This document shows, piece after piece, positions 184-61,821 of a stretch of DNA of 64,000 nt (within the stretch, counting starts at the first letter, position 1; each line of letters begins with the position of its first letter). The stretch is from Candidatus Cloacimonadota bacterium (GTDB lineage Bacteria > Cloacimonadota > Cloacimonadia > Cloacimonadales > Cloacimonadaceae), in the NCBI GenBank assembly GCA_029781115.1, contig JAKOXG010000009.1, forward strand, positions 62,001 to 126,000, written 5' to 3'. The position numbers were made by a program, and so were the translations under genes. The notes below the pieces were generated by a model that saw only the letters and a program-made list of their open reading frames with translations, was not told the DNA's origin and did no database searches.

Positions 184-2043
184 CTACTTGCTCAAGATAA
201 TCTGCTTATCACCGAATAAACGGGGTGTTTGTGTCCGATTGAATTGACGCAGGGTATAGCCGGGGATTCCATCGTCCCTATCGCCCAGCTCATTAAACAG
301 AGCCTGAACCGATATCGGGTTTTTCCCCTTGCCGAGGCTTTGCAGGGCTTTCATCAAATGATATGAAAACACGGTGTGGCCCTTATCCTCCATGATATTG
401 GCCACCTCATCTCCCTCCGAGCTCGTGATAACCACTCCATTGGTTGGCGAGAGGCTGCCTGATTTCAACCTTGTGGTTGGAGCCATTGTGCCTTTGCCCA
501 GCCCGCTGTAGCAAGCATCGATAAATAGCACATAGTTTTGCATGGGGATTTCTTCCAGATCCCTGATAATGCTCTTTACAGACACTCCTGGCCTCTTTTC
601 AGAATAAGGATTGCTGTCTGTGCCTAACAGATAGGAAAGGTTATCCCTGTTGCCTTGTTTGGTGATCCCATGGGAAAGAATATAGAGCAGCAGTTGGTCG
701 TTTTTCCTCACGATATTGGGGATCAGACCTTCATCGGGGTCTACCAGCTCTTCGAGCTGGCTGATGGTGTAATCCTTGTATTCGTAGATATTCGCTTCAT
801 TAACTCCCAGTGTCTGGGTCAGGTATTTTTTGAGCGTTTTAGCTGCGTTGGAGCCCACCTTGATCGGCTCAACCGATTCATCCCGGTAGTTTTCGTTGAT
901 CACCAGCACTGCTTTCAGATTGGGGTTCCTGACCTGGCGTTGGGGAATATTCCGATCCAATTCCGAAGGATTGTAGACCACACTTTGAGTGGCAACAGCA
1001 CTCCCCCGGGGATCGGGTGACAGGGTAAATGTTACCGGTAGTTCAATCTTATACTCACCGTCATCTGCCAGAATTTCTAAAATATGATGAGTGTCGCCTG
1101 GAATTGCGTTCTTCGTTGTTATCGGTATGGGCGCACTGTATGTTTCCCTGGCTTTGATATCGAAGGAGAAAGCAGAACCTGTAGACAAACCGGGATAGCT
1201 TCCTTTGGGTCTGAGAACCGCTTTCAGATTGTTACCATCAACTTCACTTGTATTTTCCAGCGTTAGCTTCAGATAACCACTATCTGACTGGAAAACACGA
1301 TCCCCTTCGGAGCCGCTTAATGCAAAGTCTGTTACATTTATAACCGGTACGTAAATCTTTTCCTTGTGGACTCTCCTTTGTTTGCCAACAGCAGATTTAT
1401 CCATAAACGAGATGTTGACGCCTGCGGATAGACTCAACCCAGAGTTGTTTGAGACTTCACGTATTGAGTTACCATAGTTGTAACCTTTTTCAGAATCCCT
1501 TACTAAAGTATATGATAGCTTGGCATAGAAAGCAGAACTCTGAACGCGTACACCAAGATCTAGGTAGGGAACAAAGGTAAGATTGTTACGTTCAGCATAC
1601 CCTCCAAAGAGGGCAGTTTCAAGAAAGGGATTAATTGTGAAGTATAATGGCTTTAAGCCGGAATCAGTATCATAACCAAATGCAAAAAACGGGTAATGAA
1701 CCATTGTAGGAAGGACTACAAGCCCTTCACCCGTTCTCTCAGCATACTTGTTCCAAGGGGCAGAGCTAGACTCCCTCCGATATTCGACTATTCTGTTTGA
1801 AAACCGTTGCCTTTTCCCAAACAAGCCTGGGGTAATAGTTATTCTGTCGGCAGGAGCGAAAGAATACGAGCATACACTCCACTCGCTACCTCCATTGGCC
1901 ATACCCACACTGCATATCGACCACGACGGACGATAGATATTCTTGTAAAGACCGGAGGTGTCATAGTAATACCCCTTCTGCTTTTGCGCTGCAATGCAGA
2001 CCACTGTCACTGTGATCAGCAGTGTAACTAATAGTTTCTTCAC
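184..2043 (-). CDS. secreted caspase-fold (peptidase C14-like) protein
   Basis: A 619-residue protein with an N-terminal signal peptide (residues 1-19, ending in IAAQ). Residues about 25-215 are aromatic-rich and beta-strand-like, without a recognised family. Residues about 235-345 look like an Ig-like beta domain. From about 370 to 619 there is a caspase/metacaspase fold: LKAVLVINENY opens the core, the catalytic His is in LYILSHG (H458) and the catalytic Cys in FIDACYSG (C511), so the dyad is intact. Known C14-like enzymes cleave after basic or acidic residues; the substrate here is unknown. The signal peptide places it outside the cytoplasm. It sits behind a sigma-54 promoter (2129-2144) with an AAGGAG ribosome binding site, and a two-component pair encoded upstream on the same strand is the likely controller. 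Confidence 0.85.
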   Translation of the reverse strand: MKKLLVTLLITVTVVCIAAQKQKGYYYDTSGLYKNIYRPSWSICSVGMANGGSEWSVCSYSFAPADRITITPGLFGKRQRFSNRIVEYRRESSSAPWNKYAERTGEGLVVLPTMVHYPFFAFGYDTDSGLKPLYFTINPFLETALFGGYAERNNLTFVPYLDLGVRVQSSAFYAKLSYTLVRDSEKGYNYGNSIREVSNNSGLSLSAGVNISFMDKSAVGKQRRVHKEKIYVPVINVTDFALSGSEGDRVFQSDSGYLKLTLENTSEVDGNNLKAVLRPKGSYPGLSTGSAFSFDIKARETYSAPIPITTKNAIPGDTHHILEILADDGEYKIELPVTFTLSPDPRGSAVATQSVVYNPSELDRNIPQRQVRNPNLKAVLVINENYRDESVEPIKVGSNAAKTLKKYLTQTLGVNEANIYEYKDYTISQLEELVDPDEGLIPNIVRKNDQLLLYILSHGITKQGNRDNLSYLLGTDSNPYSEKRPGVSVKSIIRDLEEIPMQNYVLFIDACYSGLGKGTMAPTTRLKSGSLSPTNGVVITSSEGDEVANIMEDKGHTVFSYHLMKALQSLGKGKNPISVQALFNELGDRDDGIPGYTLRQFNRTQTPRLFGDKQIILSK

Positions 2044-2128: not shown

Positions 2129-2144
2129 AGCAAAGTCTATGCCA
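2129..2144 (-). promoter_or_regulatory. sigma-54 promoter of caspase-like gene
   Basis: The minus strand reads TGGCAT-AGACT-TTGCT, matching the sigma-54 consensus TGGCAC-N5-TTGC(A/T) with exactly ten bases between the invariant GG and GC. The start codon lies about 75 nt downstream of the predicted transcription start. A sigma-54 activator gene is encoded 3.8 kb upstream on the same strand, and a sister promoter is at 5136-5151. Confidence 0.75.
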
Positions 2145-2507
2145 ATTCATGCCAATTTCTTAACGTGTTGCCATATAGCCAATTAGCCGGAAAGCCCCAA
2201 ATCCTTCCGGTAGTGTTTTTACACCCCTGCCACCTCGGAATAGCTTCGATTTCCGTGCTTTTTCATCATCTTCGGCAGGCATGTTCCATCGCTTTTCCGC
2301 TTTAGGTGATGTTGCCGTTATGCTTTGCTAAGGCATTGATAATAAATGCTTTTTTCAAACTCTGGATTGGCTTGGCGGAAGGAGCTGGAGTTGATAATAA
2401 CCCAGTGCTTGCGAGTCTGGTCACTATCGGGGTGTAAATTTACCACCGTGGGGTGGTCTTTTTACCTCCCCCTCTCTCGATGGTGTTTTTCGTTTTCCGC
2501 ACATTAA

Positions 2508-2696
2508 CCCAGATTATGCAGTAGAATTCTTCCCCAAGTTGGGCTTTTGCCCCGTAACTCACCTCGCCCTCACTTACCCGCAGGGCGATGCCGTGGAGAT
2601 ACTCGGATTTTTCCTAAAGTGGCACCGAGTAATCACCGGGCGGCTAAGTAAGGAAGAGGAAGGGAGGGTCACACTGGAGCAACTGCATTATCTGGG
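2508..2696. mobile_element. 189-bp MITE with 15-bp TIRs and ATTAA target duplication
   Basis: The left end reads CCCAGATTATGCAGT and the right end ACTGCATTATCTGGG; these are inverted repeats with one mismatch in 15. ATTAA flanks both ends (2503-2507 and 2697-2701), a 5-bp target duplication. The element has no transposase frame of its own. It interrupts a recognisable host sequence, the activator-tail remnant, and the host homology resumes on the other side. A hairpin core at 2573-2653 is shared with 24939-25023. No transposase matching these ends was found in the window, so it would have to be mobilised in trans. Confidence 0.75.
2573..2653. repeat. hairpin repeat core, copy 1
   Basis: This stem-loop lies inside the MITE. 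It holds nested inverted repeats (ACTCGG/CCGAGT inside, CTTACCCGC/GCGGCTAAG outside) around GCCGTGGAGATACTCGG. It matches 24939-25023, where several paired positions differ on both arms. Confidence 0.6.
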
Positions 2697-2736
2697 ATTA
2701 ACAGGTTGTTCAGAAAGCCATTACCTTACTTGAGAC

Positions 2737-2764
2737 AAAAAACCCGGAGCTCAGTCCGGGTTTT
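2737..2764 (-). terminator. Rho-independent terminator of lipoprotein gene
   Basis: Stem CCCGGA/TCCGGG with a 6-nt loop, flanked by A and T tracts. Read on the minus strand it follows the stop codon of the 2858-5071 gene and ends in TTTTTTG. Confidence 0.75.
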
Positions 2765-2857
2765 ATAATAGAATTGTATCTCTAAACACTCGCGTGAATC
2801 AAATCCACGTGTGTGATTAACAATTATTCATATCGGCTAAATGATTACCTGGCTCCT

Positions 2858-5071
2858 CTAATTCTTGTGATGGCCAGTAAAATTACCGATAGGTTCCCAA
2901 ACATTTCCGGCACTTCGATTAGCGTCCATCGTTGTTTCTGTAACATTCTCAAAAAAGAAAGTATACTCTGCGGACGTGCCTTCTTGTAGCGTGAAAATTC
3001 TATATCGATTACCGTCAAAATGAGTGGTTTGAGGCCAGTAATAGAGGTTTCCAGTACGAATTCTATAGGGCGGGATGTCACGAATGGAGTAATTCCATAC
3101 ATTATTGGGATCATCATACCATTCTCCAAGGAGGATCGTAGGGAATTCGCATTCCTGGTAATCATCGTGAGAGATAATATATTCTGCTGTAGATATCGCG
3201 CTGGGAGTCCAACCATTTTTAAATGCCTTTGCCTTTATTGTTGTTGAGCTATTTACAGTTATTGGCGATGTGTATTCGGTCGAAGATTCGCTGGGGTCGC
3301 TCCCATCGGTAGTGTATCTTATTGTAGCTCCGCTGGTCGCACAACTGATCTGCACATTTTGGGCTGACGTGTAAGAACCTCCAGGCGGGTTGAAAGTGGG
3401 AGTAGCCACAGTATTTGGCTGTATATTTATTGTGTAGTTAGCAGATGCTATTTGGCTGTCCGTCCATCCCGCTTTGGTGCCCTTGGCTTTCAAGGTCCCC
3501 GTGGATGCGATATTTACCGGCGAAGTATATCGGGTAGATGGCATTGATCCATCGGTAGAGTAGTAGATCGTGGCTCCGGGCGTGGCGCAGGATATGGTGA
3601 CATTCTGTGCTGAGGTGTAGGTTCCTCCAGGTGGAGCGAAAGTAGGCGTTGCCACTGTTTGCGGTTGGTTTATAGTATATACAGCGGATGCGATTTGACT
3701 GTCTGTCCAACCTGATTTGGTGGCCTTGGCTTTCAAGGTCGCCGTGGATGGGATATTAACAGGCTTGGTATATCGAATGGAGGGCGTTGATCCGTCAATT
3801 GAGTAGTAGATCATGGCTCCGGGCGTGGCGCAGGATATGGTGACATTCTGTGCTGAGGTGTAAGCCCCCCCCCCAGGAGGATTGAAAGTAGGAGTGGCCA
3901 CCTGGTTTTGGCTTGCCTGGGCGAGGACGACGCTGTGGTTAATTATATTTGGCATAGTTGCGCTTTCTCCGTAATCAAAAACATTGAAGTGCACACCGGC
4001 ATCCACCATGTAACCTCCTGTAAGGGTCCACCAGGGAGTGGCGTTGATATCGGCGTCCAAATTGAGAATTCCCCGGGCATGAGCCCAAGGCCCGGCTATT
4101 CCGTATAAGTTTATCTCAAACCTGGGGCCAGCGTCCACAGTAGCGTTCATTGAAGCATCTACCACCGGAATGTCATAGTCAAAACCTAAATCCTTCTCAT
4201 AATAGCTAGTCCAATTGGGTTTCTGATACTCCAGCCCTGCCTCGACCGAAGCTGAGGCCGAAACCGTGGCTGTTACGTGTGCCTCTCCATAGGCGTCGAT
4301 GTTCAGTATAATAGTCACTCTGGGGACCAAAACTATAGGAACAGGAGGAGCTGCAGGCACAACGAATACAACCGGTGCAAAATCGTGTCTGATCAATTCG
4401 ACGGATCGCTGGTAATTGAATCTGCCATCTACATTGAGTTCCAAATCCCCTTCGGAAGTAACGAATGATCCGGCTTTGATATACTGCAAACCCCTTAGTA
4501 ACGATATCTTGGCTGCTAGCTCATAACCCAGAGTGAGATCGAGTTCACCATCCACATACATGGTTACATTGTTGCCCACGTTGAATTCCTCATCAATGAT
4601 GTAGTGGTAATTATACGGGTTTTTACTGTCATGGACGAATCTCACTCCATCAGTCAGAGCTTCGGATGATACAATGTCAGTGGTTTTGAGTGATTGAGTG
4701 GTATGAAAATCCAGTTGGTCAAAAGCATCGACCAATCTCGCCTGGCTGGTGTTTACTACAATCTGCCCATTTTGGGTCGAGGAACTCTCCACTTTGCGCA
4801 AGAGACCGTAGGGTGCGGCATCAGAAATCCCCGATACGATCACCTTGCCATTTTGATAAATATCTGGACTGGTTCCGGCTGGCAGCACGATCTGATCATC
4901 GGTAACCTCAATGATGGATTCGGCTTCAGTTTCATCCAATACCACCGCCTCATCGGCTACGACCGTCTCACCTTCTTCAGGCTCAGTCGGCTTCTTTTTT
5001 CCACAACTCAATGCTGTTATTACAAATATAACAGCGACGAAAAAGATTAAGGCTAATCTAAGCTTTCTCAT
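2858..5071 (-). CDS. lipoprotein with three CHB_HEX-type repeats
   Basis: A 737-residue lipoprotein. The N-terminus MRKLRLALIF...ITALSC gives a lipobox with Cys23, followed by a charged spacer. Residues about 60-390 are a beta-rich domain without a recognised family. Residues about 391-645 hold three tandem repeats of about 85 residues (VATPTFNPPGG..YTSAQNV..SCATPGA.IYYS.DGS.PS), typical of chitobiase/hexosaminidase C-terminal or Fn3-associated domains, usually cell-surface spacer or carbohydrate-associated modules. Residues 646-737 form a unique tail. The start is fixed by GGAGG seven bases upstream. It follows a sigma-54 promoter at 5136-5151. The first repeat is encoded across a run of ten C, which adds one residue (PPGGGAY) relative to the other two. 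A surface or periplasmic role is inferred. Confidence 0.8.
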   Translation of the reverse strand: MRKLRLALIFFVAVIFVITALSCGKKKPTEPEEGETVVADEAVVLDETEAESIIEVTDDQIVLPAGTSPDIYQNGKVIVSGISDAAPYGLLRKVESSSTQNGQIVVNTSQARLVDAFDQLDFHTTQSLKTTDIVSSEALTDGVRFVHDSKNPYNYHYIIDEEFNVGNNVTMYVDGELDLTLGYELAAKISLLRGLQYIKAGSFVTSEGDLELNVDGRFNYQRSVELIRHDFAPVVFVVPAAPPVPIVLVPRVTIILNIDAYGEAHVTATVSASASVEAGLEYQKPNWTSYYEKDLGFDYDIPVVDASMNATVDAGPRFEINLYGIAGPWAHARGILNLDADINATPWWTLTGGYMVDAGVHFNVFDYGESATMPNIINHSVVLAQASQNQVATPTFNPPGGGAYTSAQNVTISCATPGAMIYYSIDGSTPSIRYTKPVNIPSTATLKAKATKSGWTDSQIASAVYTINQPQTVATPTFAPPGGTYTSAQNVTISCATPGATIYYSTDGSMPSTRYTSPVNIASTGTLKAKGTKAGWTDSQIASANYTINIQPNTVATPTFNPPGGSYTSAQNVQISCATSGATIRYTTDGSDPSESSTEYTSPITVNSSTTIKAKAFKNGWTPSAISTAEYIISHDDYQECEFPTILLGEWYDDPNNVWNYSIRDIPPYRIRTGNLYYWPQTTHFDGNRYRIFTLQEGTSAEYTFFFENVTETTMDANRSAGNVWEPIGNFTGHHKN
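3865..3874. repeat. C10 homopolymer inside a coding repeat
   Basis: Ten consecutive C (G on the coding strand) lie in the first CHB_HEX-like repeat of the lipoprotein gene. The equivalent sites in the other two repeats lack the run and encode one residue fewer. Gain or loss of one base would truncate the protein near residue 405. Confidence 0.8.
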
Positions 5072-5097
5072 TTTGTACCTCCAGTACTGTTATTATT

Positions 5098-5123
5098 GAT
5101 GCTGGTAAAATCACCGAGGCATC
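5098..5123 (-). promoter_or_regulatory. 5'-end mRNA stem-loop of CHB_HEX lipoprotein gene
   Basis: Twenty-six nt on the minus strand, beginning GATGC and ending GCATC, with inner GGT/ACC pairing. It is the counterpart of 2085-2110. It begins within a few bases of the transcription start predicted from the sigma-54 promoter at 5136-5151. Confidence 0.5.
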
Positions 5124-5135
5124 GCCTCTTTTATG

Positions 5136-5151
5136 AGCAAAGCTTGCGCCA
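5136..5151 (-). promoter_or_regulatory. sigma-54 promoter of CHB_HEX lipoprotein gene
   Basis: The minus strand reads TGGCGC-AAGCT-TTGCT, with GG and GC ten bases apart, a near-consensus -24/-12 element. The flanking TTGGCACGAAT is shared with the promoter at 2129-2144, showing common descent by duplication. Confidence 0.75.
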
Positions 5152-5254
5152 ATTCGTGCCAAAGCCCCAACATGCTGCTATACGGACGGTTAGCCACAAA
5201 GCACTAAATTCCCTCCGGTAGTGTTTTTACCCCGCCAAGCCGAGATTAAAGTCC

Positions 5255-5505
5255 AACCCCATACCTCTTCATCTTCTTTATCAGTTTAGATTTAGCATAT
5301 TCTCTCGCTTTTGCAGTTTGAGTAATGTTGCCATCATGCTTAGCCAAGGCATCACTAATAAACGCTTTTCAAACTCCAACCTGGCGTGGCGGAAGGAGCC
5401 GGAGTTGATAATAGCTTGGTGCTTGCGGGCCGCTCATTACCGGGGTGTAAATCCACCACCGTGGAGTGGTCTTTTTACCGCCCCCCCCTACCCGACGGTG
5501 TTTCC
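5255..5505 (-). pseudogene. decayed 3' end of NtrC-type activator gene (remnant 2)
   Basis: Minus-strand sequence closely matching the last 250 bases of the intact activator gene (5850-6115). The segments encoding NITQTAKA and LIKKMKRYG and the SFRHAR tract are all recognisable. Single-base deletions shift the frame, for example at the FEKEF site, and a C-rich run near 5480 replaces coding sequence. It lies directly upstream of a sigma-54 promoter and lipoprotein gene, in the same arrangement as remnant 1. Confidence 0.75.
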
Positions 5506-5509
5506 CTTC

Positions 5510-5539
5510 CACGAATGTACACGAATTAACACGAATAAA
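5510..5539. repeat. three tandem 10-bp repeats (CACGAATNNA)
   Basis: CACGAATGTA, CACGAATTAA and CACGAATAAA follow each other without gaps between remnant 2 and the palindromic element at 5586. No function can be assigned. Confidence 0.6.
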
Positions 5540-5585
5540 GTATAAAAGTCCAGGGATGAACACGGTTTTACACGGATGGGCGGCA

Positions 5586-5696
5586 GTATGGTCGCTTGCC
5601 ACAGCGACCTTTAACGGCATTCGCTTGAATGCCGATGGAGACATCCGCTGCTTCGAAGAGAAGCGGTTAAAGCGGTACTTTGGAGAGTGGTCGTAC
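5586..5696 (+). repeat. four-hairpin palindromic element, copy 1
   Basis: The element starts GTATGGTCGCTTGCC and holds hairpins GGTCGCT/AGCGACC, GGCATTC/GAATGCC and CCGCT/AGCGG, then a degenerate fourth hairpin ending in GGTCGTAC. It aligns end to end with the 112-bp copies at 11380-11491 and 61666-61777 (inverted). Several stem positions differ by paired changes. Confidence 0.65.
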
Positions 5697-5786
5697 ATGA
5701 AGCAAGCGGCGCTTGCTGGCGGCGCTACGGCTAACGCCGGCTACAGGTTTGTGCGGTATGGAGAGCGAGACCATGTGAGGTTGGTC

Positions 5787-5825
5787 GGTGCGGCTTACGC
5801 CGGTACCTTCGGTGCGCAGCGAGCG
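5787..5825. repeat. 39-bp dispersed repeat, inverted copy at 9811-9849
   Basis: GGTGCGGCTTACGCCGGTAC begins a 39-bp tract that recurs in reverse orientation at 9811-9849 with one mismatch. It lies in the non-coding tail after the activator gene, next to the palindromic element. Confidence 0.65.
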
Positions 5826-5847
5826 ACCCTACAGAACACCCATACAT

Positions 5848-7188
5848 TCAGGGCTTAATCCCATACCTCTTCATCTTCTTTATCAAGTTCGATTTATCAT
5901 ATTCTATCGCTTTTGCAGTTTGAGTAATGTTGCCATCATGCTTAGCCAAGGCATTGATGATAAACTCTTTTTCAAACTCCTGCCTGGCGTGGCGGAAGGA
6001 GCTGGAGTTGATGACAGCCTGGCGTTTGCGAGCCCGCTCACTATCGGGGTGTAAATCCACCACCGCGATATGGTCATTTTTGGCATTTATTACACCCCTC
6101 TCGATGGTGTTTTTCAGTTCCCGCACGTTGCCATTCCAGGGTTGCTCAGAGAGCCATTGCATTGCCTGAGAAGATATTGGCTTCTGGGGCAGGTTGTTGG
6201 CTGCGGAAAAGCTATCCAGAAAGTAATTGGCCAAGGCGGGGATATCTTCCATCCTCTCCCGCAGCGGCGGGACATTGATTATCATAGTGCTGATCCTGTA
6301 ATAGAGGTCTTCCCGAAACAGATTGTCTTGGATAGCTTGCTGTAAATCACGGTTGGTATCGCAGATCACCCTGGTCTTGATGTTGAGTTTTTCCCCGCCG
6401 ATCTTTTGCACTTCGCCTTCCGATAAGACTCTGAGCAGCTTGGCCTGCACATGGAAGGGCAGCTCTCCGATCTCATTCAGGAAGATGGAGCTGCCGTCAG
6501 CATATTCAAAGAATCCCTTGCGTGCCTTCACAGCATGCGTAAATGCTCCCTGTTCATAACCGAATAGTTCCGCTTCTATCAGGTCATCCGGAATGGCACC
6601 GCAGTTTACGGTGATCAAGTTCCTATCGGCAACCTTGCTAAGTTTGTGGATTGCCCGCGCCACCAGCTCCTTCCCAGCTCCCGTTTCACCGGTAATCAGC
6701 ACAGGTGCATCAAATTTGGCTGCCCGGATGATATTTTCATACACAATCTGCATGGGCTGGGAATTGCCAATCATGCCAATAGCCTTGATAGCCAGGCTTT
6801 TATTACTCTCCTCCAGGTCGAGCTGACCCTCCTTGGCCATGATCTTAGCCATGACATGTTCCGGATGAATAGGCTTTTCGATAAAATCGGCAGCCCCGCA
6901 CCTCAAGGCACGGACTGCATCCGGGATATGCCCTTCTCCCGAGATCATAATCACGGTAGTCTCGGGGTGTTTTTCATGGGCAAAATCCAAGGCTTCATAT
7001 CCATCACTCAGGGACGGAAAGCATAAGTCTTGAAACAGAATATCTATTCTCCCCTGCTGCAAACAGTTGATGCAGGCACTCAAGCAATTGGCGGTATGCA
7101 CTTCGTAATCTGCCGCCGAGATGACGCTGTGCATGAGTTCACAAAAAACCTGATCATCGTCGGCGATCAGGACAACTGGCCTCTTCAT
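5848..7188 (-). CDS. NtrC-family sigma-54-dependent response regulator
   Basis: A 446-residue protein with the three NtrC modules. The receiver domain (4-118) has phospho-acceptor D54 in FQDLCFP. The AAA+ domain (about 137-370) has Walker A GETGAGKE at 167-174, an R-finger region FREDLYYRI at 291-299, and sensor II WNGNVREL. A Fis-type helix-turn-helix spans about 405-443. Two signature motifs are altered: the sigma-54 contact loop is GAFTHA (214-219) instead of GAFTGA, and Walker B is IFLNEI with Asn238 in place of the usual Asp. It overlaps the upstream kinase gene by ATGA, so the two form a cognate pair. The likely targets are the two sigma-54 promoters downstream. Copies of its 3' end occur twice in the flanking non-coding DNA. 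Confidence 0.9.
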   Translation of the reverse strand: MKRPVVLIADDDQVFCELMHSVISAADYEVHTANCLSACINCLQQGRIDILFQDLCFPSLSDGYEALDFAHEKHPETTVIMISGEGHIPDAVRALRCGAADFIEKPIHPEHVMAKIMAKEGQLDLEESNKSLAIKAIGMIGNSQPMQIVYENIIRAAKFDAPVLITGETGAGKELVARAIHKLSKVADRNLITVNCGAIPDDLIEAELFGYEQGAFTHAVKARKGFFEYADGSSIFLNEIGELPFHVQAKLLRVLSEGEVQKIGGEKLNIKTRVICDTNRDLQQAIQDNLFREDLYYRISTMIINVPPLRERMEDIPALANYFLDSFSAANNLPQKPISSQAMQWLSEQPWNGNVRELKNTIERGVINAKNDHIAVVDLHPDSERARKRQAVINSSSFRHARQEFEKEFIINALAKHDGNITQTAKAIEYDKSNLIKKMKRYGIKP

Positions 7189-9626
7189 TGGGTTTCTCCT
7201 ATGAGCAAGATTGATACCGTGGTTCCCACCCCTTCCTCACTGATCAGTTCAATTTCGCCGTGCATCGAGCTGAGTATCTTCTTCACTTCGGGCAAGCCAA
7301 TGCCGGTTCCACTCTGTTTGGTGGTGAAAAAGGGCTGCCAGATATCGGCAAGATATTTCTCAGGAATTCCGGTGCCACTGTCCTCAATCTCAATCAGGAC
7401 TTTACTGTCGGTTCGAGCGGTCAAGGAAACTCTGAGTAAGCCGCCCTCAGGCATGGATTCGATGGCATTTGTCAGCAGATTGACCATCACTTCTTCAAAG
7501 CGGATCGGCTCGATGAGAGCAGGCAACGAAGCCAAAGACCAGTCTTTGATAACTTTGATATTGGGTGGTATATAGAAACGGCTGATACTGTTTTCCAACC
7601 AAGGGACTATATCGATTACTTTGAGCTGATATTCTCCCATCTCGGAGAAGCGTTGAAAAGCTTGCGTAAAGATCTTGATCCGGTCCACTTCAGTTTTTAT
7701 CATTTCCCGCTTGGCTGTCTGCTCTGCGGGGTCAGGATTATTCTCCAAGATGTTAAGCGCAAGCAGGATGTTGGAGATATGCCTGCGAACGTGATGGGAA
7801 AGCCGCCTGGAAATTTCCGCCCATTGGACCTTCTCTGCACTGCAGTCAGTTACCTGTGCCGGAGCGGACAGCATGATCATAATCCTGCAAGGTAGATGGC
7901 ACAACCTGTGCATCAAAACATGGAGCATACGCTCAGAATCTTGGCCAGAACATACATCTTTGGTAGTTGAGGCTGCCACACTGCGGCAAAATGCCATCAT
8001 TTCTTTATACAGGCCTGGGTGATTGTTGGCTATCCAGTCGAGATCAATTCTCTCATCAACCTGACTATCACCGAGCAGGGAGAGCATCGCCGGATTTATC
8101 TTGATGATGCGACGCTTAGACACGATCATTACGCCCAGTTGAGTTTGACTCAGGAAGATGGCTTCCTTATTTCTCAATTGTGCTATCTTGAGCCCCATGA
8201 GAATCAAGGCAATCAGCATCAAGCCAAACAAAATCGGGAGTAATGATTCGACCCACTGCCAAAGTAAATGATACCAGGGTAACAGCTTGTAATCGTAGTA
8301 GTTAATCCCCGTGTGACAGGCTATCGCTATGCGCTTGGGTTTTTCTTTACCGTTCCGGATAATATCAGCTTTGTATTTTTCATCACTGGAGAAAGGATTA
8401 TCGATCCGGGCCTCCACTTTGAGAGAGCTATTCAGGATGATAAACTCATTATTGCCACCAAGCAGTAGAATCTCTTTTTTGTTATCATTATCTATGTCTT
8501 CGATGCTTTCGATCCGTCTGACGCTCATATCCAGATCATGCTTCACCATCTGGAGGTCTTTATCAAGGATGATCAAACCATTCAGTTTATTGCTCACGAA
8601 GATGTATTGCTCGTTGGATTCATCCAAATTCGTGATCAGAGGCCGGAATTCTCGTGTTATCGGAGTTTCAAATTCGTAGCGTCTCTCTGTGACAAACTTC
8701 CTCCCGGTTGGCTTGAGTATGCTGACCGAATTCTTGTGGTTATCCGTGCCCCAAGTATGGTCGATGCGGATGATTTCATTGTTGCCGTCATTATCGATAT
8801 CAACGGATTCCAGCAGCACCTGCCCATAGCCATCAAAGCATTTCTCCACAAAGATCATTTCGCCTTTTGTGTTGCAGGCAAAGATAGCGGGACTGTGGTC
8901 GCTGGTGCCATTGATGATATTTTGATTGTTCTTGAATGCCACCGTTGACGCAATCAAGTCCTTCTTGCCGTCCAGATCAAAATCTTCGTAGATCAAGCTG
9001 GAGATATTGGCTGCCGTATCGAGCTTCCACTTCAATCTTCCAGACATCAGGTCATAAACATAGATGCCTCTCGGGTTTGATCTATAGCCATCCGCTGCCA
9101 GGCAGACCAGTTCGGCTTCATCATCGCCGTCAATATCTTTTATCATCACCGGGGTAATATTCCCGGCCCATTGGTAGTTGGGCCCAAGGTCAAGTGAGTC
9201 TGTTCGGTCTATAGCCTGAAAATAGTATGTTGCCCGTTTAATCTTCTTTTCCCAGAGATACTTGGCAGCTTGCAGATATACCCTGTTGCCATCATTGAAG
9301 CTGTAGAAAAGCCAATTGGAATCATCGTATTCGTTGTAAAGCACCTTAAACGTCATAAGTGGGTGAGCCAAGGTTATCTGGCTGAAAATATCGGTGTTTT
9401 GATTCTTGATCAGGAAGGGCTGGTAATTGTTCTTATATTCGGCTACCACCAACAACTTGGCAACTTCATCCTCGCTTACATCCACAAAACGCCACTGCCG
9501 CATATACGTGTCAGGATTGATTGATTTATCCAAGACAAACTGATGCGAAGGGGACGCCGGATAAAAGCGGCATCCCTGCGTAAAAAACAGTAACACAACA
9601 AAAGTCAATAATATCCGTACTCTCAT
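7185..9626 (-). CDS. histidine kinase with extracytoplasmic FG-GAP/VCBS-type sensor
   Basis: An 813-residue protein. The N-terminus ends in FFTQGC, a possible lipobox (Cys19), or acts as a signal anchor. Residues about 30-440 contain repeats with Asp-rich calcium-type loops (DIDGDDEAE, DFDLDGKKD, DIDNDGNNE, DIDNDNKKE), as in FG-GAP/VCBS beta-propellers. A transmembrane helix lies at about 455-480 (LLPILFGLMLIALILMG). A short PAS-like segment (GVMIVSKRRIIKINP), a HisKA region with HHVRRHISN, and an HATPase_c domain (N-box NLLTNAIES, G1 DSGTGIP, G2 TGIGLPEV) follow. The Ca-binding-like propeller outside the cell is an unusual kinase input domain. It overlaps the response regulator gene by four bases. 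The ligand is unknown. Confidence 0.88.
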   Translation of the reverse strand: MRVRILLTFVVLLFFTQGCRFYPASPSHQFVLDKSINPDTYMRQWRFVDVSEDEVAKLLVVAEYKNNYQPFLIKNQNTDIFSQITLAHPLMTFKVLYNEYDDSNWLFYSFNDGNRVYLQAAKYLWEKKIKRATYYFQAIDRTDSLDLGPNYQWAGNITPVMIKDIDGDDEAELVCLAADGYRSNPRGIYVYDLMSGRLKWKLDTAANISSLIYEDFDLDGKKDLIASTVAFKNNQNIINGTSDHSPAIFACNTKGEMIFVEKCFDGYGQVLLESVDIDNDGNNEIIRIDHTWGTDNHKNSVSILKPTGRKFVTERRYEFETPITREFRPLITNLDESNEQYIFVSNKLNGLIILDKDLQMVKHDLDMSVRRIESIEDIDNDNKKEILLLGGNNEFIILNSSLKVEARIDNPFSSDEKYKADIIRNGKEKPKRIAIACHTGINYYDYKLLPWYHLLWQWVESLLPILFGLMLIALILMGLKIAQLRNKEAIFLSQTQLGVMIVSKRRIIKINPAMLSLLGDSQVDERIDLDWIANNHPGLYKEMMAFCRSVAASTTKDVCSGQDSERMLHVLMHRLCHLPCRIMIMLSAPAQVTDCSAEKVQWAEISRRLSHHVRRHISNILLALNILENNPDPAEQTAKREMIKTEVDRIKIFTQAFQRFSEMGEYQLKVIDIVPWLENSISRFYIPPNIKVIKDWSLASLPALIEPIRFEEVMVNLLTNAIESMPEGGLLRVSLTARTDSKVLIEIEDSGTGIPEKYLADIWQPFFTTKQSGTGIGLPEVKKILSSMHGEIELISEEGVGTTVSILLIGETQ

Positions 9627-9810: not shown

Positions 9811-9849
9811 CGCTCGCTGAGCACCGAAGGTACCGGCGTAAGCCGCACC
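9811..9849. repeat. 39-bp dispersed repeat (inverse of 5787-5825)
   Basis: The reverse complement of this tract equals 5787-5825 with one mismatch. Together with the neighbouring repeat at 9849-9917 it fills the gene-free stretch between the kinase gene and the lipoprotein genes. Confidence 0.6.
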
Positions 9850-9917
9850 GCCGCCAGCAGGCGCAGACTGCTTCCCCAACACAGCCCCATAAACACACCC
9901 AGCTACACCAAGAGCAT
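9849..9917. repeat. 69-bp dispersed repeat, inverted copy at 12653-12721
   Basis: The reverse complement reads ATGCTCTTGGTGTAGCTGGG and onward, matching 12653-12721 with few mismatches. The two copies flank the tandem lipoprotein pair in opposite orientation. The rest of 9918-10134 shows further GC-rich palindromes (GGCGCT/AGCGCC at about 10079-10096) but no gene. Confidence 0.65.
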
Positions 9918-10134
9918 CCGCATCTCCAACATGGGCGCAGCAGCTCTCCCTCACTCCCTCTCTCGCTCTCTCCCTCTTGCCGACCGTCTCGGCCGCATCT
10001 CCGAAATGAGCGTCAGCTACTGATGACTGCGGCGAAGCCCGCTTCACCTTTCAAAACATCAAGCTGCGCTTGATTGCGGCGCTATGGCAAGCGCCGGCTA
10101 CATTTGACAGTCGCTACAGCGAGCGCCCGTACAT

Positions 10135-10308: not shown

Positions 10309-11100
10309 CTATTTGTGTCTCATTTTTAGCATTCTATCGAAGATCCGTTCATTATTTCGAGAGTACCAGTCATCGTCGCTTGAGATACAATCCTCAGCAT
10401 AGGCCACTATGATGCAATTACCATACTTCTTCAGATTATACTCTGCTATACACAACTCATAGTCTTCACCATCCGCGAGAAAAGTGTTCGCAGGAATTGT
10501 ATGTTTCCTTGCTGATGCATTGACGATCTCATAATAAAAATCTTGATCATCGTCATACCAAACATCTGTCTCAACGGCTTGAACGCGGTTGTTTTTGTCT
10601 GGAGTCAGTGTCCAGTTCAATGTTACTGGTTCCGTCCAATCAATAGGCTCGGGCAGATCCTGTAAGCTTGGGATTGAAGGCAATTTGATGGATGTGTTGA
10701 CCATTTCTACGTTATTATGAGTGAATTTGATGGCCAAAGATTCGCTATTTGGCAGCACAACGCCCTCTAAATTGTTTACAATTATGTATACATTCCCAAA
10801 TAAATCGTATACCTCAACCGGGACAGTCTGATCATTGATCACCAAACTAAAAGTATCATCCAGTGATATATCTGGCCCCGCATCAACTGCTACCCATACC
10901 AACAGATTGTCTCCCTCTTTCTCATACCCTAATACCATAGCCCGTTCAAAGCTCTGAACATATCTCTCGAATTGAATCCAGTTCTTGAAATCAGGAATGC
11001 CATCGTCGGGCTCAGTCGGCTTCTTTTTGCCACAACTCACTGCTGTTAACAAAAGCATAACAGCGACAACAAAGATTAAAGTTTGTCTCAGCTTACTCAT
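10309..11100 (-). CDS. lipoprotein of unknown function, tandem paralogue 1
   Basis: A 263-residue protein when started at MSKLRQTLIF, chosen because GGAGG lies seven bases upstream and a signal peptide with lipobox LLTAVSC follows directly. An in-frame ATG at 11187 would add 29 residues but lacks a signal-like start. After KKKPTEP the mature part is beta-rich, with the segments DDTFSLVINDQTVPVEV and IDWTEPVTLNWTLTPDKNN shared with the next gene. It ends in RNNERIFDRMLKMRHK. No family is recognised. Its first 30 codons are nearly the same as those of the CHB_HEX lipoprotein gene (2858-5071), although the mature parts are unrelated. It has its own sigma-70 promoter and terminator. Confidence 0.8.
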   Translation of the reverse strand: MSKLRQTLIFVVAVMLLLTAVSCGKKKPTEPDDGIPDFKNWIQFERYVQSFERAMVLGYEKEGDNLLVWVAVDAGPDISLDDTFSLVINDQTVPVEVYDLFGNVYIIVNNLEGVVLPNSESLAIKFTHNNVEMVNTSIKLPSIPSLQDLPEPIDWTEPVTLNWTLTPDKNNRVQAVETDVWYDDDQDFYYEIVNASARKHTIPANTFLADGEDYELCIAEYNLKKYGNCIIVAYAEDCISSDDDWYSRNNERIFDRMLKMRHK

Positions 11101-11237
11101 TTTGTACCTCCAGTACTTTTTTGATTGTTGAGTCTCTAATGTTGGAGTAAATTCCAACTTGTTATTAAAAGGGCTCTCTGAGGACATTTTGATATTCCTC
11201 GTTATTCACATCTATGCTTGGTCGACTTACCGACGGC

Positions 11238-11266: not shown

Positions 11267-11379
11267 GCTTTTTTATTTCCACTACCTTATGCGATGGAAT
11301 TGCCCCCTGCGGAGGGCGTAAGCTTTTTACTGGGATCCGCATGGCTCTGTTTTTTGGGTTTTCCACGGATGGGAGTCAT

Positions 11380-11491
11380 GTATGGTCGCTTGCCACAGCG
11401 ACCTTTTAACGGCACTCGAACGAGTGCCGATGAAAACATCCGTTGCTCCAGAGAGCAACGGTTAATTGGTCGCTACGGCGAGCGACCATAC
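11380..11491 (+). repeat. four-hairpin palindromic element, copy 2 (112 bp)
   Basis: The ends are GTATGGTCGCT and AGCGACCATAC. Inside are four hairpins in order: GGTCGCT/AGCGACC, GGCACTC/GAGTGCC, CCGTTGCTC/GAGCAACGG and GGTCGCT/AGCGACC. It lies upstream of the paralogue 1 promoter, directly against the terminator of paralogue 2. There is no coding capacity. Confidence 0.75.
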
Positions 11492-12652: not shown

Positions 12653-12721
12653 ATGCTCTTGGTGTAGCTGGGTGTGGTTATGGGGCTGGGTTTGGGAAGC
12701 AGGCTGGCGCCTGCTGGCGGC
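12653..12721. repeat. 69-bp dispersed repeat (inverse of 9849-9917)
   Basis: It matches the reverse complement of 9849-9917 over its whole length with few mismatches, and lies upstream of the paralogue 2 promoter. Confidence 0.65.
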
Positions 12722-12790
12722 GCTATGGCAAGCGCCGGCTACATTTGGTCGCTATGGCAAGCGACCATACATGACTCCCATCCGTGGAAA
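12719..12790. repeat. two palindromes plus inverted copy of 11359-11403
   Basis: Hairpins GGCGCT/AGCGCC (12719-12736) and GGTCGCT/AGCGACC (12747-12766) lie in series. From 12747 to 12790 the reverse complement matches 11359-11403, covering the first hairpin of the 112-bp element and its upstream flank CCACGGATGGGAGTCATG. It looks like a truncated element. Confidence 0.65.
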
Positions 12791-12811
12791 AATCAGAAGC
12801 CCTAAAGCCAT

Positions 12812-24739: not shown

Positions 24740-24938
24740 GCAACTTCCTTGTATTTTTATTCTTTACCCATATAATAAGCAAGCTCGCAAGTGAGGCAAG
24801 GGATTATTTTGCTTGCGTGGTAGTTAACAGCAGCCGGAAGTGTGGATTTGCCTTTTTGGTGAGCGTGGATAGGCTTTGATGCCTGTAATGCCATCGGCAT
24901 TCGCTGTGATACTTTATGGAGTCCTCACTCACCTGTTG

Positions 24939-25023
24939 CTTACTTACCCGCCCGGAGATGCCGTGGAGATACTCGGGTTTTTCCCGGGAGGCTCCGGGTA
25001 ATCTCCGGGAGGCTGAGCAAGGA
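24939..25023. repeat. hairpin repeat core, copy 2
   Basis: A long imperfect hairpin: CCCGGAGAT (24951-24959) pairs with ATCTCCGGG (25001-25009), and CTTACTTA pairs roughly with TGAGCAAG outside it. The loop GCCGTGGAGATACTCGG is the same as in the MITE core at 2573-2653, but the MITE ends are absent. The rest of the gene-free stretch 24740-25208 shows no frame; a TTGACA at 25168-25173 may be the -35 of the tRNA cluster, without a good -10. Confidence 0.6.
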
Positions 25024-25208
25024 AGAACTGAGTAATGCGCTTTTACCAGGTGGGCAATCTTCAGGTATCAGCTGCAACATTGGCATTTTACTCCGGAAGG
25101 ATTAAACTTCGTTTATGCCAAACCATAGGCTGCTTCTGCCTTGCGGAAGGAGCAAAATAAATAGTTCTTGACAAAAAGGGCGGATCCAAAAAAATGGTAG
25201 GACATCAG

Positions 25209-61665: not shown

Positions 61666-61777
61666 GTATGGTCGCTTGCCATAGCGACCAATTAACCGCT
61701 GCTCTCTGGAGCAGCGGATATTATCAAACGGCACTCAGCGAGTGCCTCCATAAGGTCGCTTCGGCGAGCGACCATAC
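61666..61777 (-). repeat. four-hairpin palindromic element, copy 3 (112 bp, inverted)
   Basis: On the minus strand the order is GGTCGCTC/GAAGCGACC, GGCACTC/GAGTGCC, CCGCTGCTC/GAGCAGCGG, GGTCGCT/AGCGACC, with ends GTATGGTCGC and GCGACCATAC. It is exactly as long as copy 2. Another simple palindrome, GGTCGGTC/GACCGACC, lies just before it at 61630-61649. Confidence 0.75.
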
Positions 61778-61821
61778 TGCGGCGGTTCAGCGACGGCTGG
61801 CTACAACGAGTCGCAAGCATG

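Follow-up and report, generated by a model that had tools for sequence, protein, structure and literature searches.

Within a 64,000-nucleotide stretch of DNA from a Candidatus Cloacimonadota bacterium, hereafter called the window, fragments of the 3' end of an NtrC-type activator gene (hereafter called tails) stand in front of sigma-54 promoters, and the question raised by this locus is why a promoter should be accompanied by a piece of a regulator gene. The activator, the tails, the promoters and their targets are all on the minus strand, and the genome searched comprised 2.25 Mb. The tails are best read as relics that have been retained as enhancer DNA, more than as a recombination handle; they contain a putative binding site of the activator, which family members conserve within the activator gene and which appears to have been kept in the decayed tails. 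For the model as a whole, comprising a kinase-activator pair, dyad sites, duplication of a tail-enhancer-promoter unit and, in relatives, two RNAs called R2 and R1, we estimate a probability of about 70%.

The activator gene and its decayed 3' copies

The activator gene (5848-7188, minus strand) encodes an NtrC-type response regulator whose receiver, Sigma54_activat AAA+ and Fis-type helix-turn-helix domains were each assigned by Pfam above cut-off and by motifs. Beside it is a gene for a sensor histidine kinase (7185-9626, minus strand) with a lipoprotein-type N-terminus, an FG-GAP-like sensor, a PAS domain and an HATPase domain (Pfam HATPase_c, E 2e-22; the FG-GAP and PAS matches were weak). 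This gene is the partner of the activator in relatives too, with orthologous pairs of about 50% identity across the family. The nearest relative, a sister species (G002), has an activator that is 93% identical. Between the two species dN/dS was 0.10 for the kinase, 0.05 for the whole activator gene and 0.04 over its AAA+ domain, values indicating that the activator is under strong purifying selection.

In the initial annotation, two regions of the window, 2235-2735 and 5255-5505, had been taken for decayed copies of the activator 3' end, each directly followed by a near-consensus sigma-54 promoter and a gene with a secreted product. Pairwise alignment with the activator 3' end was significant for both regions and the arrangement was confirmed, with a correction to the extent and state of the copies. 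Tail 2 (5255-5503, minus strand) aligns from 5476 to 5255 with activator DNA 6080-5857 and is 87% identical over 224 bp (E 3e-72). Tail 1 (2280-2505, resuming at 2706-2735 past an insertion, minus strand) is 77% identical (E 8e-45), and its flanks are collinear with the activator. Both are pseudogene fragments with stops, frameshifts and raised dN/dS that cover at most about 100 C-terminal residues of the activator, and tail 1 is split by a MITE-like element of 194 bp (2504-2701) with TTAA duplications and terminal inverted repeats. The whole-genome search (2.25 Mb) placed the activator 3' end at three positions only, namely the activator, tail 1 and tail 2, and no fourth copy was found. The two tails align with each other at 72% identity over 419 bp, across the intergenic region and the promoter, and this homology ends at the same point in both (2084 and 5097), just short of each target gene. 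An assembly duplicate was considered as the source of the tails and judged unlikely, the copies being 13-28% divergent and the sister genome having one. A partial copy of the MITE-like element is present at 24927-25026. In another genome of the same genus (G005), the tail-1 query gave 41 genome matches, mostly to the MITE-like stretch.

The tails could be mere relics: after duplication of two complete kinase-activator-promoter-target modules, loss of the additional activators would have left functionless 3' scars. Their pseudogene state fits such a history, as does the further breakage of tail 1 by the MITE-like element. Against it, nothing beyond the last ~100 codons is present at either site, and the sister's tail begins at nearly the same codon as the window tails. 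Related genomes with full-length activators at the tail sites were looked for, and none was found among the genomes searched.

The pS of tail 2 is 0.27 to the activator of its own genome and 0.47 to that of the sister; for the sister's tail the values are 0.38 to its own activator and 0.46 to that of the window. In each case the tail is closer to the activator of its own genome, yet derived changes are common to all tails. Since local gene conversion would explain both patterns, the initial suggestion that the activator tail served as a recombination handle is kept in play. On that account, homology to the activator 3' end would drive repeated recombination or gene conversion that moved the promoter. 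Independent duplications fit the tail patterns too, however; relatives with the same activator-promoter junction carry no tail copies, and dispersed repeats around the locus would be equally good recombination substrates. We therefore regard a handle as a possible but unlikely explanation of the tails, which as putative binding-site DNA would be more than that. A dispersed GC-rich repeat block of 343 bp (5506-5848), with similar copies in the window and in the sister, now separates tail 2 from the stop codon of the activator. Related GC-rich pieces are found at 9811-9874, 10060-10102, 11357-11465, 12696-12791 and 61666-61783, and the same repeat family also lies behind the sister's activator.

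Sigma-54 promoters and enhancer-like sites

The promoters P1 (TGGCATAGACTTTGCT, 2129-2144, minus strand) and P2 (TGGCGCAAGCTTTGCT, 5136-5151, minus strand) were recognized by sequence match, and TGGC-N7-TTGC with the GG/GC spacing is exact in both. An extended promoter 27-mer, TTGGCNNNNNTTGGCNNNNNNTTTGCT, has exactly two occurrences in the genome, at P1 and P2 (control 0), and with the 27-mer confined to these two sites a chance origin of the promoters was rejected. A second TTGGCA-like -24 element lies about 10 bp upstream of each promoter (2144-2155 and 5151-5162).

In relatives, a 17-bp palindrome, GTGGTA-N5-TACCAC, is found within the activator 3' coding sequence, in many of them 209-221 bp before the stop and over the codons V-V-D-F-T-T. 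In many relatives a sigma-54-type promoter also stands just behind the activator, with a second copy of the palindrome about 72 bp upstream of it, at a palindrome-to-promoter distance of 78-82 bp start to start; P1, P2 and the sister's promoter fit this spacing when it is measured from centre to promoter. The pattern of palindrome, 57-70 bp and sigma-54 promoter was matched 15 times in 50 family genomes (reversed control pattern, 0), with 11 of the 15 matches just behind this activator. In 14 family relatives the activator is full-length, and behind it lie the enhancer palindrome and, at a fixed distance, a sigma-54-like promoter identified by scoring.

The window carries an imperfect form of the family palindrome, with a 4-bp centre. 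Within the activator coding sequence the enhancer-like site is GGTGGTGGATTTACACCCC (6046-6064, minus strand), homologous to GTGGTAGATTTTACCAC of relatives, and synonymous diversity over its codons is the lowest in the activator gene, the six lowest windows starting at codons 375-380. Motif search and alignment located an identical site in tail 2 (5442-5460, minus strand) and the form GGTGGTAAATTTACACCCC in tail 1 (2429-2447, minus strand). The promoter-proximal copies are in the opposite orientation: that of P1 (2209-2227, minus strand) is exact and inverted, with its centre about 73 bp from the -24 element, and that of P2 (5217-5235, minus strand) was placed by motif search and alignment, has two mismatches and is inverted, with its centre about 74 bp from the -24 element. 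When the motif GGTRGTGNWTTTACACCCC was searched in the 2.25 Mb with at most two mismatches, six places were found (control 0). Five belong to these units, namely one in the activator gene, one in each tail and one about 73-74 bp (centre to promoter) upstream of each of P1 and P2; the sixth lies elsewhere. Alignment also revealed an extra enhancer-like half site, GTAAAAAGACCAC, in tail 2 (5466-5478, minus strand) and in tail 1 (2453-2465, minus strand); this half site, a putative binding site, is lacking in the activator gene. A site-like block, GTAAAAAnnCCAC, is common to the three tails of the window species and its sister and is missing from the activator gene.

In a five-way alignment of the two activators and three tails of these species, no other 19-bp stretch is as conserved as the site (17/19 positions versus 122/210 elsewhere, p = 0.005, for a site fixed beforehand from relatives and one small alignment). 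No part of the tails is better conserved than the enhancer-like block; this and the gained block that they share both count against functionless scars, and with the truncation noted above make such relics quite unlikely. Retention of the tails as enhancer DNA remains the preferred reading.

The likeness to other enhancer-binding proteins of the NtrC family extends to the receiver-AAA+-Fis architecture, the 17-bp dyad with its 5-bp centre and a promoter about 70 bp away. This system differs in having one site inside the activator's own coding sequence, kept across the family, and the window protein differs in its GAFTHA loop and Walker B asparagine. The GAFTGA loop, which contacts sigma-54, reads GAFTHA in the window activator and its sister, compared with GAFTGA in nearly all relatives, and the Walker B motif of both reads FLNE (asparagine) instead of FLDE; neither GAFTHA nor the Walker B asparagine was found among 80 distant homologs. 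These changes could have altered the sigma-54 contact or ATP hydrolysis of the window activator, and they are the main caution on sigma-54 activation by this protein. P1 and P2 might thus answer to another enhancer-binding protein, and further NtrC-type genes are present elsewhere in the window genome. Such an assignment is improbable in view of the purifying selection on the activator's AAA+ domain, the position of most family palindrome-promoter matches just behind this activator and the specificity of the intragenic sites to this activator gene. The window genome contains an rpoN gene.

In the preferred model, the sensor kinase would phosphorylate the NtrC-type activator encoded beside it. 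The activator would bind dyad sites inside the 3' end of its own gene and about 72-74 bp upstream of the sigma-54 promoter and, once bound, would contact sigma-54 RNA polymerase at the promoter. With one putative enhancer site lying inside the activator gene, any copy of the regulated promoter that works would take the activator tail along. The model is built on sequence, that is, on homology and tail decay, the motif and spacing of the sites, the sequences of the promoters, the purifying selection seen in the activator gene, and the complementarity of R1 and R2; it is from these that we infer binding of the activator to its sites and dependence of the promoters on sigma-54.

Target genes in the window and in the sister species

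The N-terminal Sec or lipoprotein signals of the P1 and P2 target products were identified by eye. Downstream of P2 is a gene (2858-5071, minus strand) for a secreted lipoprotein with three CHB_HEX_C_1/Fn3-associated repeats (Pfam E 8e-61) and a lipobox, LSCGKK, read by eye. The signal-peptide and leader region is duplicated between lipoprotein genes, the copies at 4971-5101 and 11000-11130 being 83% identical. A third lipoprotein gene (12490-11622) is split in two frames, and its relative in the sister is in one frame (L037 7593-8399).

Downstream of P1 is a gene (184-2043, minus strand) for a secreted caspase-like protein (SHG ... DACYSG). The product had no Pfam hit (the Peptidase_C14 profile was unmatched) and no match in PDB sequences, and with neither a profile nor a PDB sequence to support a caspase assignment, the caspase reading is by motif, from His-Gly and Asp-Ala-Cys motifs seen by eye only. 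A 79% paralog adjoins this gene, which heads a same-strand gene run extending left of the window. Among the genes tested further left, three have Peptidase_C14 and two of these also have an FGE-sulfatase domain; the run is possibly read from P1. The same-strand run left of the window (L036 1370-17001) encodes secreted caspase/FGE-sulfatase, LPP20-like and DUF4384 proteins.

The sister has a single tail at the same position behind its activator, followed by the promoter TGGCCCCGACCTTGCT and a different downstream gene, and the window's caspase-like gene is absent from the sister genome; the tail-promoter unit therefore stays and its target changes. The proposal that the activator-target junction had been duplicated and had gained new targets holds insofar as the unit was copied to positions ahead of unrelated genes. 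The number and order of the duplications are poorly constrained because only one genome other than that of the window, the sister's (86% complete), has a tail copy, and any order assigned to them is inferred. In the window lineage, the tail-enhancer-promoter unit would have been duplicated to positions ahead of the secreted lipoprotein gene and ahead of the secreted caspase/FGE-type run, with the tail reading frames decaying and the enhancer sites being kept. An enhancer in the coding tail of an activator would leave a recognizable scar beside each promoter copy, so that regulon expansion could be read from genomes, and would offer a concrete, testable route for regulon growth.

The palindrome-promoter arrangement also occurs away from the activator in four relatives (L170, L171, L172 and L177). 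Three of the four precede genes for secreted proteins with Pfam FGE-sulfatase, Peptidase_C10 and CARDB domains, and the fourth, in the genus of the window species, precedes a gene for a lipoprotein-like protein (by eye). From these gene neighborhoods, this regulator seems repeatedly to control secreted proteases and FGE-type proteins.

Predicted R2 and R1 RNAs in relatives

Downstream of the palindrome-spaced promoter, no substantial open reading frame is present in the 14 relatives (the longest has 43 codons), and a predicted terminator follows the promoter in 12 of the 14, mostly after about 100-330 nt. The promoter behind the activator in most relatives thus appears to drive a terminator-ended RNA, R2, without a protein gene. 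The ancestral order had initially been given as activator, sigma-54 promoter and target gene; the order stood, with palindrome and promoter behind the activator in the 14 relatives, but the promoter probably served a small RNA ancestrally, and not a secreted protein gene.

R2 contains repeated CTGTAGG-type sites. Read from the opposite strand, the same 15-mer forms the 5' end of another RNA, R1. R1 (about 75 nt) has a TTGACA promoter, a nearly invariant stretch of about 32 nt (AGCCUACAGACCCUACAUAGAAUGCCCUCCGA) and a terminator hairpin. A covariance model found it in 50 of 50 family genomes, with 1-11 matches in each and often in multiple copies, and it is also present in several neighboring families of the order. 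The hairpin covaries, with both sides changed in 9 of 14 pairs (0 of 500 shuffles as high). Neither RNA had an Rfam match, and the two would thus be families new to Rfam: R1, from all 50 family genomes searched, and R2, from the ancestral promoter and with repeated R1-antisense sites. Across the R2 sequences, 65 8-mers are antisense to the R1 core; shuffles gave 3.25 (maximum 10 of 200), and the opposite strand gave 2. R2 thus resembles a sponge that would titrate R1 by base pairing, and R1 itself could pair through CCCUCC with ribosome-binding sites.

A secreted-protein gene often follows R1 at a distance of 19-31 nt, and in that position R1 might act in cis as a leader. We favor a separate RNA because some R1 copies have no gene nearby, because the TTGACA promoter and the terminator are constant, and because R2 contains antisense sites. 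R2 was looked for in the window and in the sister and was not found, and the P1 and P2 leaders have no antisense R1 site, a scattered 9-mer in the repeat block at 5825 being the one match. Two R1 copies of the window genome were read and have a changed 5' end (AUCAUACAG and AGCAUACAG), a change that, for these two copies only, would be consistent with pairing having relaxed once R2 was lost.

In most relatives, then, the single promoter behind the activator would drive the non-coding R2, whose repeated sites would titrate R1. Extended to the whole family, the proposal is that a two-component system, acting through an enhancer in the regulator gene, switches on a sponge, R2, that titrates the universal and often multicopy R1, and that the window lineage lost the sponge, multiplied the enhancer-promoter together with the tail, and exapted it for secreted protease-type genes. 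We hold this extension tentatively, as somewhat short of an even chance.

The closest working parallel is the CbrA-CbrB-CrcZ system of Pseudomonas and Azotobacter, in which an NtrC-type regulator directly activates the sigma-54 promoter of a regulatory RNA just downstream of the regulator gene; CrcZ titrates Hfq/Crc, and the CbrB-type regulator controls other genes too (PMC8871633). The likeness, seen in sequence in the 14 relatives, consists of a two-component NtrC-type regulator, a sigma-54 promoter and a predicted RNA directly behind the regulator gene; the window and its sister, where no R2 was found, lack the RNA part. The system described here would work like CbrAB-CrcZ and is not a member of it. 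No sequence relationship of R1 or R2 to CrcZ was found by Rfam matching. CrcZ titrates the Hfq/Crc proteins, whereas the sites in R2 of the relatives are antisense to an RNA, R1. Further differences are that the regulator gene itself contains an enhancer-like site, that the promoter was multiplied with the tail in the window lineage, and that in this lineage, without R2, the duplicated promoters would drive secreted-protein genes. If the model is true, it describes a CrcZ-like switch in which the partner that is titrated is an RNA instead of a protein; the bacteria concerned are known here from genome sequence alone.

The enterobacterial QseEF(GlrKR)-GlmY system is described as a two-component system with a sigma-54-activated small RNA beside the kinase and regulator genes, QseF binding upstream activating sequences (PMC6075780, PMC8745638). 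The likeness is a sigma-54-activated small RNA adjoining two-component genes, and the difference is that GlmY lies upstream of the kinase gene, whereas R2 lies behind the activator in relatives. GlmY acts as a protein decoy. We know of no enhancer within the regulator coding sequence of that system.

The two R1 loci read in the window genome are G000:C10:248958-249034 and G000:C3:56497-56573 (L230 and L231), and those of other family genomes are among L185-L249. Viral contigs were also searched for the R1 core, and two contigs matched.
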